Of a stretch of 56,461 nucleotides of DNA, positions 3,679 to 9,382 are shown piece by piece. This DNA is from Maricaulis salignorans. GTDB taxonomy: Bacteria; Pseudomonadota; Alphaproteobacteria; Caulobacterales; Maricaulaceae. The notes below the pieces were generated by a model. That model was given only the letters and a program-made list of their open reading frames with translations. It was not told the origin of the DNA and did not search any database. Positions within the stretch are counted from its first letter, which is position 1. The number at the start of each line of letters is the position of its first letter. The stretch is taken from assembly GCF_900103475.1 (NCBI RefSeq), contig NZ_FNHG01000020.1, positions 5,001 through 61,461 of the forward strand. Direction: 5' to 3'. Made by a program: the position numbers and the translations under genes.

Positions 3679-4155
3679 TCACCCCGGCTCCACCATCCCC
3701 AGTCCCGCATAGAATCGCGCCGCGCCGGACGGGTTGTCGGCGGCGACTTTCAGGTCGATCTCATAAATTCCGCGTGCCTGGAACGTGGCGAAGACCTGCA
3801 GCATGAGGGCGCGTCCCAGGCCGCGGCCGCGCCAGCGGGCCGTAACCGCAATATCCTTGACGAAGCCCAGGCTCCAGCACTGGGCAAAGCCGGCCGGCTC
3901 GCCGGTGGCGGCATCCAGCGCGATGAAGCAGAGATCGGGACGGTATTCCGGATCGGCTGTCAGTGCCGGCCACCAGTCCTGGAAGGCGATGACATCGCCG
4001 CCGCCCGGCGTGTAGGCGATATTGAGCAAGGCACGCGCGGCGCGGGCATGGTGGTGCGGGTCAAACCTGGTGGGCCGGACGCCCTGCGGCCAGCACGGCT
4101 CATAGTGTTCAGCCGGGTCAATGTGTTTGCGAAGATGGATGGCGGTCGGGGCCAA
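3679..4155 (-). CDS. GNAT family N-acetyltransferase
   Basis: 158 aa. The acetyl-CoA loop is visible as RWRGRGLGRALM about residue 107, preceded by strand 4 (FVKDIAVTA) and followed by a C-terminal AADNPSGAARFYAGLGM, the usual helix and final strand. The start is TTG at 4155 with GGAG about 9 bases upstream; no in-frame ATG gives the complete N-terminus. The substrate cannot be assigned. It is convergent with the zinc finger gene. Confidence 0.8.
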   Translation of the reverse strand: MAPTAIHLRKHIDPAEHYEPCWPQGVRPTRFDPHHHARAARALLNIAYTPGGGDVIAFQDWWPALTADPEYRPDLCFIALDAATGEPAGFAQCWSLGFVKDIAVTARWRGRGLGRALMLQVFATFQARGIYEIDLKVAADNPSGAARFYAGLGMVEPG

Positions 4156-4348
4156 GGGGCGACGTCTCCAGCGTGAGCTGCGATGCTACAGGCTTGGCCG
4201 GGGGCGTCAATTTGCGCGGCAGCCCGGCCGGGCTGCGCCTGTCGCCAGGATGAACACCCCACTCAGGCTTCGCTCAGGGGCGTTGGGTCAATCTCCCTGC
4301 AACAACGGCCCCGGACATTCCGCCCGGCGGCAAACAGGAGGAAGACCC

Positions 4349-4852
4349 ATGTCACTTCGTCGCTTCTTTATGGCCGGTCTGGCGCTGGCTTCCCTCGCCG
4401 CCGTCAGCGGTACCGCCGATGCCCAGTCGCGATTCCGCAATAGCGCCGAAGCGCGCGAGGCGATGCGCAATCATCGCTCTGCGACCATGGAAACCAATTC
4501 GCGCGGCTCTTCGCCGGTGCTGAATATCTATCAGGATATGCGGCGCGGGCTGCAGCAGGGTGTTTCGGTCGACCAGCATGGCCGCAATAACGGCGCCTCG
4601 CTGTATCAGAACGGCCGCAATGGCACGATGTCGCTGCAGCAATACGGCAATGATCTCTCCGCCAGTCTCTACCAGAACGGCAATGGCAATATCGTCGCCG
4701 TCGCCCAGGTCGGTGAAGGCAGTACCGTCAATACGGTGCAGGAGGGCAATAACAATGTTCTCGGCGTGATCCAGGTCGGCAATGGCCAGAACCAGACCTA
4801 TACGCAAGTCGGAAATGGCAATGCCGATATCATCATCAGCTTCGGCTGGTAG
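4349..4852 (+). CDS. Curlin-repeat (CsgA/CsgB-like) secreted protein
   Basis: 167 aa. A Sec signal peptide (cut near ADA-Q at residue 25) is followed by a linker and then about five repeats of the curlin type, x-x-Q-x-G-x-x-N (SVDQHGRNN, SLYQNGRNG, SLQQYGND, SLYQNGNGN, VAQVGEG, TVQEGNNN, VIQVGNGQN, YTQVGNGN). In curli these repeats stack into an amyloid beta-helix outside the cell. AGGAGG 6-7 bases before the ATG fixes the start. No csgG, csgE or csgF gene is in the window, so the export route is unknown. It could be an amyloid subunit, a nucleator or another fibre protein. Confidence 0.82.
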   Translation: MSLRRFFMAGLALASLAAVSGTADAQSRFRNSAEAREAMRNHRSATMETNSRGSSPVLNIYQDMRRGLQQGVSVDQHGRNNGASLYQNGRNGTMSLQQYGNDLSASLYQNGNGNIVAVAQVGEGSTVNTVQEGNNNVLGVIQVGNGQNQTYTQVGNGNADIIISFGW

Positions 4853-4948: not shown

Positions 4949-6244
4949 TCAGCCCGCCCTGCCGGGTTCCAGCTGTGCCGCCAATTCGTCCAGACGGGCC
5001 GCGATATCGGTGAGCCGGACCGGGCGCTGCAACACCTCGGCCAGGCTTGGCGGCGGTGTCAGTCTCTGGCCGATCAGGGGCTCCACCGCATCAGCAAACT
5101 TGCAGGGATGCGCCGTAGCGGCGGCGATCCAGACCCGCTCGGCGCGCCGGGCCGGCGCCATGCGGGCATAGGCCTCCAGCGCCGTGGCGGTGTGCGGACA
5201 GGCGATATAGCCACTCGCCGCATGCGTCGACACGATGCGCTGGCGGATCGCCGCATCATCGACGCGCACGACATCCTCAACCAGATCCGCTCCAAACCCC
5301 GACAGGCGTTCGAAATTGCTCGGCGCGCCGACATCCATGGCATTGGCCAGGGTCGCGATCGACTGGCGCGCCGTGTACTGGCCGCTCGCATGCCAGTCGC
5401 TCAGCGTTGCATTGGCATTCGTCGCCAGCACGACCGGGCCGATCGGCAGGCCGCAGGCGCGCGCCAGCAGGGCGGCAAAGCCATTGCCCAGATTGCCGGT
5501 TGGCACGACCAGGCCGGGCCGGGTGCCGGTGCGGGCGAAAATTTCAAGACTGGCCTGGGCCCAATAGGCCATTTGCGGCAATAACCGACCGATACTGATG
5601 GAATTGGCCGAGCTCAGACCATGCCGGGCGCTGAGCGCTTTGTCGGCGAAGGCGGTTTTGACGAGGCGCTGGCAGGCATCGAAATCATCGTTCACCCGCA
5701 AGGCTGTCACCGGATCGCGCCAGCAGCATAATTGGCGTTCCTGGAAGGCCGAGATCCGGCCCTTGGGAAACAGGATCACGGCGCGGGCATGACGCGCCCC
5801 CTCGGCAGCACAGCCGACCGCACCGCCGGTATCACCCGATGTGGCGGCGAGCACGGTGATCGGGTTGTCGGGATTGGCGATGGCGTCGAAGGCACGAAAC
5901 AGGAAGCGCGCACCGAAATCCTTGAAGGCTCCGGTCGGGCCATGAAACAGCTCGAGGACCTGCAAGCCCGGCTCGGCGGGGTCAGGGGTGACCAGCGGCA
6001 ATGGAAAGTCGAAGGCCGAGGCGCAAATCCCGGGCAGGCTGTCGGCCAGGGCAGAGTCGGCGAAGAAGGGGCGCAGCAGACGGCCGGCGAGGGCGCCGAG
6101 ATCCTGGTCCTCGGCAAAAGCGTTGGGCTCGAATTGCGGCAGGGTCTGCGGCAGGTAGAGACCGCCATCAGGCGCGACACCGGCGCGCAAGGCCTGGTCG
6201 GCGCTGACGAGCGGGGCATGGCCGCGTGTGCTGCGATATCTCAT
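4949..6244 (-). CDS. thrC: Threonine synthase
   Basis: 431 aa, PLP enzyme that converts O-phosphohomoserine to threonine. The N-terminus MRYRSTRG is typical of the shorter threonine synthase class. GPTGAFKDFGARFL carries the PLP lysine about residue 110, LAATSGDTGGA is the phosphate-binding loop, and VPTGNLGNG is also conserved. The ATG at 6244 overlaps the thrB stop by 4 bases (ATGA). It is the last gene of the operon, ending at the hairpin shared with the curlin gene. Confidence 0.95.
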   Translation of the reverse strand: MRYRSTRGHAPLVSADQALRAGVAPDGGLYLPQTLPQFEPNAFAEDQDLGALAGRLLRPFFADSALADSLPGICASAFDFPLPLVTPDPAEPGLQVLELFHGPTGAFKDFGARFLFRAFDAIANPDNPITVLAATSGDTGGAVGCAAEGARHARAVILFPKGRISAFQERQLCCWRDPVTALRVNDDFDACQRLVKTAFADKALSARHGLSSANSISIGRLLPQMAYWAQASLEIFARTGTRPGLVVPTGNLGNGFAALLARACGLPIGPVVLATNANATLSDWHASGQYTARQSIATLANAMDVGAPSNFERLSGFGADLVEDVVRVDDAAIRQRIVSTHAASGYIACPHTATALEAYARMAPARRAERVWIAAATAHPCKFADAVEPLIGQRLTPPPSLAEVLQRPVRLTDIAARLDELAAQLEPGRAG

Positions 6245-7185
6245 CTCACCGCCTCCAGCCGCAAGCCATCCGAGATCAGGGCCGCATGATAAGGCGTCGC
6301 GCCGCAATCAGCCGCGGCGAAGGCTGCGGCCATGGCCGCGCGGCAGGCATCGGCCTGCGCTTCGGGCACCCAGGCGAAGACGGACGGGCCGGAGCCGGAG
6401 AAGGAACAGCCCAGCGCGCCGGCCTCGAGGGCGGCGGCCTGGACCGGGGCGAGCTCGGGCAGAAGCGGAAGGCGCTGTGGCTCGATGAAGACATCGCGCA
6501 GGCCACTGGCGATCAGTTCCAGATCATTGCCGGCACAACCGGCGACGAAGCTGGCGATATTGCGGGCATGCTCGACGGCGATGTCCTTGGCGATATGATC
6601 CGCGAGAAGGTCGCGGGCGCGGCGGGTCTCGATCTTGCGATCGGGGTGAAACAGGATGCAGGCAATCCCGTCCGGCAGGGGCAGGCGGCGGATCAGTGGC
6701 GGGTCGAGCCGGGCGGCGATCACCAGACCGCCGAGCAGGGATGCCATGACATTGTCCCAGGGCGGTGGATCCGCCGAAACGCGCTCGCCCTGCATGGCCG
6801 GCAGCAGGAGATCGAGCGTCTGAAAGGGCGTGTCCAGCAGGGCATTGACGGCCCCGGCCGCCGCCACGGCCGAGGCCGCAGACCCGCCCATGCCGGCACT
6901 CAGCGGCACGCCCTTGTCGATATCGATGCGAACCCCGAATGAGGCGCCGGCGGCGTCGAGCACGGCGCTGGCCGCAGCGAGGGCGCAATTGCGCCCGACT
7001 TCGGCGGGCAGGCTGTCGACCAGGCCGCAGACCGTGCCGAGGCGCACGCCGGGCTCGCGCTCGCGGTGCGCGGTGACGCTGTCGCGCACGGCATCGAAGG
7101 CGAGGCCGAGCACGTCAAAGCCGACGCCGACATTACCGATACTGGCCGGCGCCGAGGCGCGGGCGGAACGGGCTGGAGATGTCAT
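6241..7185 (-). CDS. thrB: Homoserine kinase, GHMP family
   Basis: 314 aa. The GHMP ATP-binding motif is PLSAGMGGSAASAVAA about residue 93, the N-terminal motif is ASIGNVGVGFDVLGLA, and the C-terminal motif is GCSFSGSGPSVFAW. This is the E. coli-like ThrB, not the choline-kinase-like ThrB2 found in many other alphaproteobacteria. It phosphorylates homoserine in the cytosol. It overlaps both thrA upstream and thrC downstream by ATGA, which implies coupled translation. Confidence 0.95.
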   Translation of the reverse strand: MTSPARSARASAPASIGNVGVGFDVLGLAFDAVRDSVTAHREREPGVRLGTVCGLVDSLPAEVGRNCALAAASAVLDAAGASFGVRIDIDKGVPLSAGMGGSAASAVAAAGAVNALLDTPFQTLDLLLPAMQGERVSADPPPWDNVMASLLGGLVIAARLDPPLIRRLPLPDGIACILFHPDRKIETRRARDLLADHIAKDIAVEHARNIASFVAGCAGNDLELIASGLRDVFIEPQRLPLLPELAPVQAAALEAGALGCSFSGSGPSVFAWVPEAQADACRAAMAAAFAAADCGATPYHAALISDGLRLEAVR

Positions 7186-8969
7186 GCGCTGTCTTCCCCC
7201 GGCATTCGTGCCGCTTGCGCGGAGCGCTCCGGCTTGGACGTAGCCGGTACGGCCAGAGTGTTATCGAGCAGGCGCTGAATGTCGACAATATCGGCAAACA
7301 CCGCTTCGGCGGTCGGCCAGCGGCCCGCGCCCTTGCCCTGCACATAAAGGGATTGGTGTGGCAGCTGAACGAGGAAGCCATTTTCCTCATTGCGCAGTTT
7401 TGCCAGCGGATTGTCGCGCTCCAGGGCACGCAGTTCGATGCGGGCCACCAGGCGGCCATCACCGCCGGCGCTGCAATGTCCGACCTGTTTGATCACCTGG
7501 TTCTGGTCCGCCGCGGCCTGCAGGCGCTCCGGCGTCAGCCCGGACAGGCTCTCCTTGGCGATATCGGCCGGGTCGAGGCGGATGCCGAAGGCGTGGCGGA
7601 TGATGATGGAGAGTTTGTCGGCGGCATCATCGCCATCAATATCGCCGCGCGGATCGGCCTCGGCAAAGCCGAGCGCCTGGGCCTCGGCGATCGCGTCGGC
7701 GAGCAGGGCACCGTCGTCCAGCCGGCCGAGGATGAAATTACAGGTCCCGTTCATCACCCCCTCGACCGAGAGCACAGCGCCGCTCTGGCTGACCCGGTCG
7801 AGGGTTTCCAGGATGGGCGCGCCGCCACCGACAGCGGCGGAATAGCGCAAATGCCGGCCGGAATCCGCGGCCAGCTCGTGCAGGCGGTCGAAATCGAGTG
7901 CGATGACGGCCTTGTTGGCGGTCACCAGATGCAGGCCATCACGCAGGACGGACTGACTGAGAGCGCGCGCCACGCCGGTGCCGCCCATCGTCTCGACCAC
8001 CAGATCGGGCTGGTCTTCCAGCGCTTCGGCCAGATCTTCGGTGAAGCGGACACCCGGTGCGCCGGTGGCCGCATGTTGCGCGGCGTCACGGACCAGGACG
8101 GGGTTGAGCCTGAAACGGCCGGGATGGGCGAGCAGATGCCGGCAGACACCGGCGCCGACCGAGCCATGGCCGAGCAGGGCGACGCGCAGGGGACGGACGC
8201 GGTGACGGGCGCCGATCTTCGGCGCCACCGGTCCGATCCGCGTTGCGAAGGCCTTGCCCAGGGCGGCGACCTCGATCACGACACCGAGCGCCTGGGCGGC
8301 CTGGATGGCCTTGTCCTGCACCAGGCCGCGGCTGACCCGTGCAGCCTCGGCATAATCGAGCTGGTCGAAACGATGGGCGTCGGGCACCCGCGCCGGATCA
8401 TCGGTATAGACCCCGTCGACATCCTTGATCAGGCGCGCCCGGCTGGCGCCGAGCCAGTGGGCAAACATCACGGCCGTCAGATCTGTACCGCCGCGGCCCA
8501 GTGTTACCGGCCCGTCCGGACCTTCGCCGAAGAAGCCCGGGGCCACAATGACATCGGCCTGTTCGAAATGCGCCAGAACGCGCGCCGCGTCGAGACCGGT
8601 CAGGTTCGCATCCAGCGACGAACCTTCGGCCTTGAGACACATTTCATGTGGATCGAGGACCACCGCGCTGACGCCCGAGCGCTGCAGGGCCAGCCCCATC
8701 AGGGCGGCTGATTTGAGCTCGCCGCAGCGCACCAGGCGCGCCAGCATCGCATCATGGGCGCTTTGCCCGACCGCGGCACCGACCTCGAACAGGGCGTCGG
8801 TCTCGCCATCAAGCGCCGAGACAACGGCGACGACTTTTTCGCCAGCCCGCGTATGGCGATAGATTTCATGCGCGGCGCGGGCATAGTCATCCGGCGAGAG
8901 CAGGACTGAACTGCCGAATTTGAGGATGCTGAGCTTGGGGGCGGGGGCTGGGCTGGCTGGAGAGGTCAC
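7182..8969 (-). CDS. thrA: Bifunctional aspartate kinase / homoserine dehydrogenase without ACT domains
   Basis: 595 aa from a GTG at 8969, which has AAAGGA about 8 bases upstream. The ATG at 9005 lies at the foot of the attenuator hairpin and has no ribosome site. The N-terminal half is an aspartokinase catalytic domain (KFGSSVL, VVAVVSALDGETD, GRGGTDLTA, KDVDGVYTDDP). From about residue 264 a homoserine dehydrogenase follows (LRVALLGHGSVGAGV, TANKAVIA, GGGAPILETLDR, GVMNGTCNFIL, EADPRGDIDGDDAADK). E. coli ThrA is about 820 aa with ACT regulatory domains between the two; here the kinase runs straight into the dehydrogenase. The usual KFGGTS loop reads KFGSS. Confidence 0.92.
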   Translation of the reverse strand: MTSPASPAPAPKLSILKFGSSVLLSPDDYARAAHEIYRHTRAGEKVVAVVSALDGETDALFEVGAAVGQSAHDAMLARLVRCGELKSAALMGLALQRSGVSAVVLDPHEMCLKAEGSSLDANLTGLDAARVLAHFEQADVIVAPGFFGEGPDGPVTLGRGGTDLTAVMFAHWLGASRARLIKDVDGVYTDDPARVPDAHRFDQLDYAEAARVSRGLVQDKAIQAAQALGVVIEVAALGKAFATRIGPVAPKIGARHRVRPLRVALLGHGSVGAGVCRHLLAHPGRFRLNPVLVRDAAQHAATGAPGVRFTEDLAEALEDQPDLVVETMGGTGVARALSQSVLRDGLHLVTANKAVIALDFDRLHELAADSGRHLRYSAAVGGGAPILETLDRVSQSGAVLSVEGVMNGTCNFILGRLDDGALLADAIAEAQALGFAEADPRGDIDGDDAADKLSIIIRHAFGIRLDPADIAKESLSGLTPERLQAAADQNQVIKQVGHCSAGGDGRLVARIELRALERDNPLAKLRNEENGFLVQLPHQSLYVQGKGAGRWPTAEAVFADIVDIQRLLDNTLAVPATSKPERSAQAARMPGEDSA

Positions 8970-9006
8970 TGAACGGGTCCTTTGGGTGATCTGGATTTCA
9001 GGCATG

Positions 9007-9100
9007 AAAAAACCCGCTTCCGGGTGGGAGCGGGTCGGGTATCGGACGGATTTGAAAAATCGCTAGTCCACGCCAACCTGCCCCCTCATACCCGAGGTGG
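9007..9100 (-). promoter_or_regulatory. Threonine operon transcription attenuator
   Basis: Read on the minus strand, four segments can pair in the classical order. Segment 1 (9100-9094, CCACCTC, in the Thr8-Ser10 codons) pairs with segment 2 (9087-9081, GAGGGGG) around a 6-base loop. Segment 2 extended (9085-9073, GGGGGCAGGTTGG) pairs with segment 3 (9038-9026, CCGACCCGCTCCC) with one mismatch and two G-U pairs. Segment 3 (9035-9029, ACCCGCT) also pairs with segment 4 (9018-9012, AGCGGGT), followed by six T, an intrinsic terminator. A ribosome stalled at Thr codons would cover segment 1 and favour the 2:3 antiterminator; one at the stop codon would cover 2 and allow termination. Confidence 0.82.
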
Positions 9101-9122
9101 TCATGGTAATGGTCATGGACAT
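9063..9122 (-). CDS. thrL: Threonine operon leader peptide
   Basis: 19 aa; it begins MSMTITMTTSGM. Of the first 12 residues four are Thr, four Met (one the start) and one Ile, the three products of the aspartate pathway made through ThrA. It resembles E. coli ThrL (TTITTTITITT) in principle but is not homologous in sequence. No clear ribosome site precedes the ATG, so it may be leaderless, as some alphaproteobacterial leader peptides are. The stop codon ends 27 bases before the attenuator segment 3. A longer in-frame reading to 9308 lacks biological sense. Confidence 0.75.
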   Translation of the reverse strand: MSMTITMTTSGMRGQVGVD

Positions 9123-9382
9123 GGTCGAGCCGGACGTCGCAAGGACGCCGTCGCCGCAGGCGGTGCGGCGCAGGATGTCAGAGCGGGTTACGGCAGAAAA
9201 GGGCATCATTATCCGGTCAGGCAAGGCCGTGCCCAAAAGCGGGCGCAGCGAAATTCTTTTGCAAGAAAGGCCCAGCCCATGCCGCAGGTCAAACATTTTT
9301 TGTCGCAAAACTGCATTTGACGCATCAAGCGAGCCAAAATGTCACGGGTCGCGTTTCCCGATCACCCGGATTTCAGACAGTA
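9123..9382. other. Intergenic region upstream of the thr leader
   Basis: No gene is supported here. It must hold the thr promoter on the minus strand, but I see no convincing -35/-10 pair; TAATGA (minus, 9211-9206) is a possible -10 without a good -35. A small hairpin, GCCGCA/TGCGGC, lies about 40 bases upstream of the leader ATG. Confidence 0.5.

Follow-up and report, generated by a model that had tools for sequence, protein, structure and literature searches.

Among described regulatory systems, the one closest to the locus studied here is the Escherichia coli-type threonine (thr) attenuator (thrL, represented in Rfam by RF00506, Thr_leader). In the E. coli thr operon, thrB and thrC follow, and the ThrA protein has an ACT domain that carries feedback inhibition. 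The main comparative study of such leaders is said to be that of Vitreschak and others in 2004. The Thr leader (RF00506) is among the motifs listed in PMC3766115. Within the same bacterial class as our locus, the main text of PMC4117421 presents the Caulobacter ilv leader as an alphaproteobacterial leader-peptide attenuator; this leader shares its general mechanism with the one proposed below but concerns other amino acids and other genes, and the word threonine is absent from that main text. Titles and abstract openings, mostly from outside subscription journals, yielded no report of a threonine attenuator in alphaproteobacteria and none of Met codons in a thr leader.

Here, we analyzed a 56,461-nt stretch of the Maricaulis salignorans genome (hereafter, the window), in which thrABC appears to be controlled by a ribosome-mediated transcription attenuator (probability about 0.9, as judged from sequence comparison; Table 1). 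The site resembles the E. coli-type system in that both have a leader peptide rich in Thr and Ile, an antiterminator that overlaps the end of the leader ORF, a U-tailed terminator, and an aspartokinase-homoserine dehydrogenase gene next in line. It differs in that the leader ORF of the family is probably 39-55 aa long, many of the leaders contain Met codons, the window site falls under the Rfam cut-off, and the window ThrA has no ACT domain.

Table 1. Features of the thr leader region and the genes behind it in the window.
Feature	Coordinates	Strand	Basis or remark
-35-like promoter element TTTGAC	9288..9293	-	in 19/19 genus-g1 leaders, -212 to -268 from leader stop
Probable full leader ORF, 48 aa + stop	9063..9209	-	frame open to ATGATG 9209/9206
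19-aa leader of the sequence-only reading, MSMTITMTTSGMRGQVGVD	9063..9122	-	ATG 9122, stop TAG 9065-9063
Regulatory codon run, Thr x4, Met x4, Ile x1	9087..9122	-	53 family leaders have a Thr-rich stretch at this position
Segment 1, partner of 9088-9084 in the 1:2 hairpin	9093..9097	-	folds in the window
Segment 2, antiterminator 5' arm, within leader ORF	9066..9085	-	folding and coevolution of halves
Segment 3, antiterminator 3' arm	9026..9047	-	CCCGCTCCC invariant in 19 genus sequences
Intrinsic terminator (3:4 hairpin + T-run)	9007..9036	-	z -4.1
thrA, aspartokinase-homoserine dehydrogenase fusion	7182..8969	-	GTG start proposed; ATG 9005 as alternative
thrB, homoserine kinase	6241..7185	-	NCBIfam NF002288 and TIGR00191 above cut-off
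thrC, threonine synthase	4949..6307	-	TIGR00260 above cut-off

The minus strand carries, in order, pckA, a terminator-like hairpin, the conserved TTTGAC, the leader, and then thrA-thrB-thrC. Pfam recognized AA_kinase, NAD_binding_3, and Homoserine_dh domains in the window ThrA and found no ACT domain across 7182-9005, nor any in the ThrA proteins of the five relatives scanned (L097, L103, L108, L191, and L268). As ThrA lacks this domain, control at the level of transcription may bear more of the load. The alternative thrA start, ATG 9005, follows the last T of the T-run by a single C (TTTTTTC-ATG), and an AAAGGA (8983-8978) lies upstream of GTG 8969, which from the sequence is the likelier start; thrC probably begins at ATG 6244 (by eye). 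Elsewhere in the window, positions 4121-4852 of the plus strand encode a repetitive Gln/Asn-rich protein that by eye resembles a curlin (curli) subunit.

The predicted terminator pairs a 5' arm at 9036-9029 with a 3' arm at 9018-9011, has its T-run at 9012-9007, and folds with -15.8 kcal/mol. The predicted antiterminator joins segments 2 and 3 through three blocks, GGGGGC 9085-9080 with GCTCCC 9031-9026, GGTTGG 9078-9073 with CCGACC 9038-9033, and GGAC 9069-9066 with GTCC 9047-9044, and this 2:3 pairing is the minimum free energy topology of the region. Positions 9031-9026 pair with 9085-9080 in the 2:3 helix and the overlapping positions 9036-9026 pair with 9021-9011 in the 3:4 hairpin; the shared strand 9036-9026, together with the coevolution described below, bears out the mutual exclusivity of antiterminator and terminator that the sequence-only reading had claimed. 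By itself, the window antiterminator reached a z of only -1.2, and the whole 141-nt region a z of -1.7 (11 of 200 shuffled versions were as stable or more so), so that the fold of the single sequence is not decisive and the comparative evidence is. Among 5000 random 380-nt stretches of the window, 80 contained a stop-terminated frame with at least four Thr in eight codons and 11 contained such a frame followed by a terminator; when both window strands were scanned for this combination, 9122-9007 on the minus strand was the single site returned.

A 1:2 hairpin had also been proposed, with its first segment lying over two adjacent Thr codons. Five base pairs (CCTCG 9097-9093 with TGAGG 9088-9084) do fold in the window, but segment 1 covers only the latter ACC of the ACC ACC pair, together with the Ser codon, and in genus g1 the helix, with 77% of cells paired, is no better than its controls shifted by -1 and +1 (78.6% and 83.3%, respectively). 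This hairpin, which would enforce termination in the absence of translation, is poorly supported and optional at best.

The comparative evidence came from 137 genomes of the family, in which a search for ThrA at E 1e-60 gave matches in 95 genomes at 98 places; 90 of these places were fetched, and the eight omitted were two second copies and six partial matches. At 53 of the 90 places, the sequence upstream of thrA contained a Thr-rich frame with a terminator after it (52 by a rule of four Thr in eight codons, plus L140, with three in eight, added by eye). These comprised all 52 places with a ThrA identity of at least 44% and one at 41%; at the 37 places where ThrA was 34-40% identical, the identical rule found no such leader. 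Likewise, no Thr leader with a terminator was found at seven ThrA fusions of family f5 (L180, L186, L187, L189, L190, L201, and L202) or at nine homs of other families (L204-L212). Within the 53 leaders, z was below -1 for every terminator and for 48 of the antiterminators (mean z -2.3), and in the predicted folds the antiterminator stem usually encloses the leader stop codon.

Within single genera, pairing is well conserved and double-sided changes are few. For genus g1, 91% of cells in the 2:3 helix were paired, vs 42-50% in shifted versions, with 0 pairs changed on both sides and no excess covariation; its terminator contained one pair with double-sided changes. For genus g18, the 2:3 helix is a 20-bp stem with 90% of cells paired, vs 35-58% when slid, and its 2 double changes were no more than in shuffles. 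Applied to alignment A4, RNAalifold recovered the terminator but just a short part of the 2:3 helix, because segment 2 is aligned there in different registers, and an alignment-free test was therefore used. Since the stems vary in sequence and register between genera, each 5' half was folded with each 3' half; cognate halves gave a mean of -19.8 kcal/mol, compared to -13.7 kcal/mol with partners from other genera. Of the 362,880 ways to assign halves among nine genus groups (three of which held one sequence each), the true one scored best, and 33 of the 53 sequences individually beat more than 90% of their other-genus partners. The antiterminator halves thus coevolve.

Segments 2, 3, and 4 and the Thr codons recur across the 53 leaders, as a conservation test put forward with the original proposal of threonine attenuation had asked, and this recurrence and the coevolving halves both support that proposal. 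The same co-occurrence of Thr frame, antiterminator, and terminator makes it very improbable that the hairpin is a mere intrinsic terminator behind pckA, or a constitutive one, with the leader frame a chance ORF. Although a terminator does exist and the 3' end of pckA lies upstream of the leader on the same strand as thrA, pckA has a separate hairpin and T-run of its own directly behind it (about 9410-9382, by eye), and the conserved TTTGAC stands between that hairpin and the leader. Among the 53 family leaders, 47 likewise have a TTGAC at a distance of 90-330 nt upstream.

Under the attenuator reading, we infer where the ribosome stalls, when transcription terminates, and which amino acids are sensed as follows. 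When charged Thr-tRNA (probably also Ile-tRNA and perhaps Met-tRNA) is available, the ribosome would reach the leader stop codon and cover segment 2, whereupon the 3:4 terminator would form and transcription would end before thrA. With charged tRNA in short supply, the ribosome would stall in the Thr/Ile/Met run and leave segment 2 free, which could then pair with segment 3 and allow transcription to go on into thrA.

As for the leader peptide itself, re-reading gave exactly the frame proposed before, MSMTITMTTSGMRGQVGVD, including its content of 4 Thr, 4 Met, and 1 Ile codons, and revised its length of 19 aa. The frame stays open to an in-frame ATGATG at 9209/9206, which would give a leader of 48 or 47 aa, and an in-frame ATG stands 39-55 codons ahead of the stop in all 53 family leaders; the window leader is thus probably about 48 aa long. 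A loose rule found a Shine-Dalgarno-like stretch at the upstream ATG in 36 of the 53 leaders, the window not included, and no clear Shine-Dalgarno sequence was seen at the upstream start in the window (9209/9206). Thr accounts for 49% of codons -8 to -20 across the 53 leaders, Ile for 13%, and Met for 8%.

We then considered how this leader relates to the Rfam-type thr leader. RF00506 (gathering score 55 bits) had no match in the window, nor any up to E 10 around the site; its sole match among 18 relatives was L135, at 31.7 bits, and one match below the cut-off (E 6.2e-4) lay somewhere in the window's own genome. No Rfam family reached its cut-off at the leader site, where the best match, Trp_leader, was rejected at 22 bits vs a cut-off of 41. 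Across 347 genomes of the phylum, RF00506 had matches in 133 at E 0.001, with 23 over the cut-off, and it had matches in 4 of 14 control genomes, with 1 over the cut-off; matches under the cut-off were used solely to fetch loci L309-L315. The over-cut-off genomes fall in groups f178, f182, and f170, which are taken to be gammaproteobacteria from their leader sequences, and none is in Alphaproteobacteria.

A model built only from the family's 53 leaders (R1) was applied in the reverse direction. R1, which has only 8 base pairs and is therefore largely a sequence model, matched 30 of the 30 Thr_leader loci given to it (over-cut-off and weaker RF00506 matches; 19-62 bits) and had the thr leader as its top hit in each of the 10 whole genomes with Rfam-type leaders that were tried (29.8-61.1 bits). 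In 288 genomes of the class, the highest R1 score beyond the order was 36.7 bits, so the lower part of the 29.8-61.1 range lies within background. In recovering Rfam-type leaders above background, R1 points to a sequence kinship with the Rfam-type thr leader, through either descent or convergence, and an independent origin, as had been suggested from the window alone, is therefore not supported. The end GCGGGC-TGA, common to several family leaders and Rfam-type ones, also speaks against it. That the threonine attenuator arose independently of the gammaproteobacterial one thus seems unlikely to us, even considering that Thr_leader misses the site and that its 23 over-cut-off genomes all lie outside the class, that the window ThrA, besides lacking an ACT domain, scores 223 with the NCBIfam ThrA model (cut-off 726), and that convergence under equal constraints could yield some of the likeness to R1. 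A further point on the side of independent origin is a group of thrA leaders from another family of the same order (f3, genus g21), which score 30-49 bits with R1, below many Rfam-type leaders. As in the window, these consist of a Thr/Met leader and a terminator before a ThrA without an ACT domain (Pfam on L191, L268, L271, and L275), but they differ in ending with RAGTG or RAGRV and in having another terminator.

The Met codons of the leader led us to the number of homoserine dehydrogenase (HSD) genes, which were sought together with metX homologues in the 137 family genomes. Leaders from genomes with a single HSD held 1.95 Met codons on average (n=19), vs 0.56 in genomes with two or more (n=32; p 1e-6, uncorrected for descent), and a second measure of Met gave 1.63 vs 0.63. 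At least two Met codons were found in 13/19 single-HSD and 1/32 two-HSD genomes, and at least one in 18/19 and 17/32, respectively. The single-HSD class was limited to genomes with a completeness of at least 85%, which excluded L099 (G079) and L134 (G134), and G029 was scored as two-HSD solely through a 103-residue fragment. The number of Ile codons showed no difference by HSD class (p 0.21, ignoring descent). For Rfam-type leaders, HSD genes were counted in 25 genomes, made up of G860, G902, and 23 of the 30 from which L286-L315 came; the mean was 1.75 Met codons in single-HSD genomes (n=4, all of family f170) vs 0.57 in two-HSD genomes (n=21; p 0.011). No other of the 53 family leaders is as rich in Met as that of the window, which has 4 Met codons between -8 and -20 and comes from a genome with one HSD and one metX match.

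Of the 32 leader genomes with more than one HSD, 31 have the extra HSD adjoining metX by coordinates, and G029 is the exception. At the two loci annotated, L193 and L195, the second HSD lacks an ACT domain and lies with metX, and a metB-like gene follows; the MetX model passed its cut-off in L193 and narrowly missed it in L195, and cystathionine gamma-synthase models stayed under their cut-offs in both. The second HSD with metX (and, at these two loci, the metB-like gene) is apparently a methionine-branch operon. Eight second-HSD loci had no Rfam family over its cut-off, and scanning them turned up no terminator-bearing leader rich in Thr or Met. Separately, in seven genomes of the family (G086, G087, G091, G097, G025, G028, and G031) no ThrA match was found at 1e-60, and the only HSD match adjoins metX.

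These patterns suggest a tentative rule, to which we give somewhat less than even odds: where ThrA is the sole HSD and also feeds methionine, the leader would gain Met codons and sense Thr, Ile, and Met, and once a second HSD beside metX serves the methionine branch instead, it would revert to Thr and Ile. There is an even chance, in our estimate, that the Met codons are instead incidental, being one base away from the Thr codon ACG or old start codons, and that the switch responds to Thr alone or to Thr plus Ile. Incidental codons would fit the 17 of 32 genomes that hold at least one Met despite two or more HSDs, as well as the presence of Met in two-HSD Rfam-type leaders (mean 0.57), but would not account for the tracking of single-HSD status by Met number in the family (subject to the neglect of descent) and again in Rfam-type leaders (where the four single-HSD cases are one family), for the lack of such a difference in Ile, or for the position of one HSD beside metX in 31 of 32 genomes. 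The phylogeny bears on both readings: the ThrA tree shows 4 changes of HSD state, and the association rests on only 3-4 independent changes, so that a sign test cannot reach significance; over 3 independent pairs, Met moves with HSD state in 1.2 on average and never in the opposite direction. The genomes without a metX match are likewise divided. G026 and G029 (genus g8) have leaders without Met, which is a point for the link to metX, whereas G129 and G132 have 1 and 2 leader Met codons, which is a point against it and in favor of incidental codons.

The site is very probably a conserved threonine attenuator, and the rule on its Met codons is possibly new. Such an attenuator would carry threonine-operon attenuation into a class that Rfam's Thr_leader did not reach in the 347 genomes searched, covering much of one alphaproteobacterial family and some of another. 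The suggested rule is that the amino acids read by a leader follow the end products that depend on the controlled genes; if it is true, the codon content of leaders would be evidence on pathway wiring.

Several other leaders were observed in the course of these searches. Leu/Val/Ile-rich leaders with terminators precede ilvD at L281, L282, and L283 (Maricaulis group) and at L280 (f3 g21), with ilvD identified by Pfam on L280 and L281 and by eye on L282 and L283. At L259 and L261, Thr/Lys-rich leaders and terminators lie before the gene for aspartate-semialdehyde dehydrogenase, a step shared by the routes to Lys, Thr, and Met. Leaders containing Met, Ile, and Thr, with terminators, were found at L266, L267, L269, L270, L272, and L277 (f3 g28, g29, and g34), and at L269 the leader is followed by two small ORFs, the second of which is ACT-like by eye. 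Finally, L262 and L264 (f63 g112) have Thr-rich leaders, such as MTTRTTMTATTTTRCGGP, with terminators; the L262 leader precedes threonyl-tRNA synthetase, and L264 looks similar by eye.
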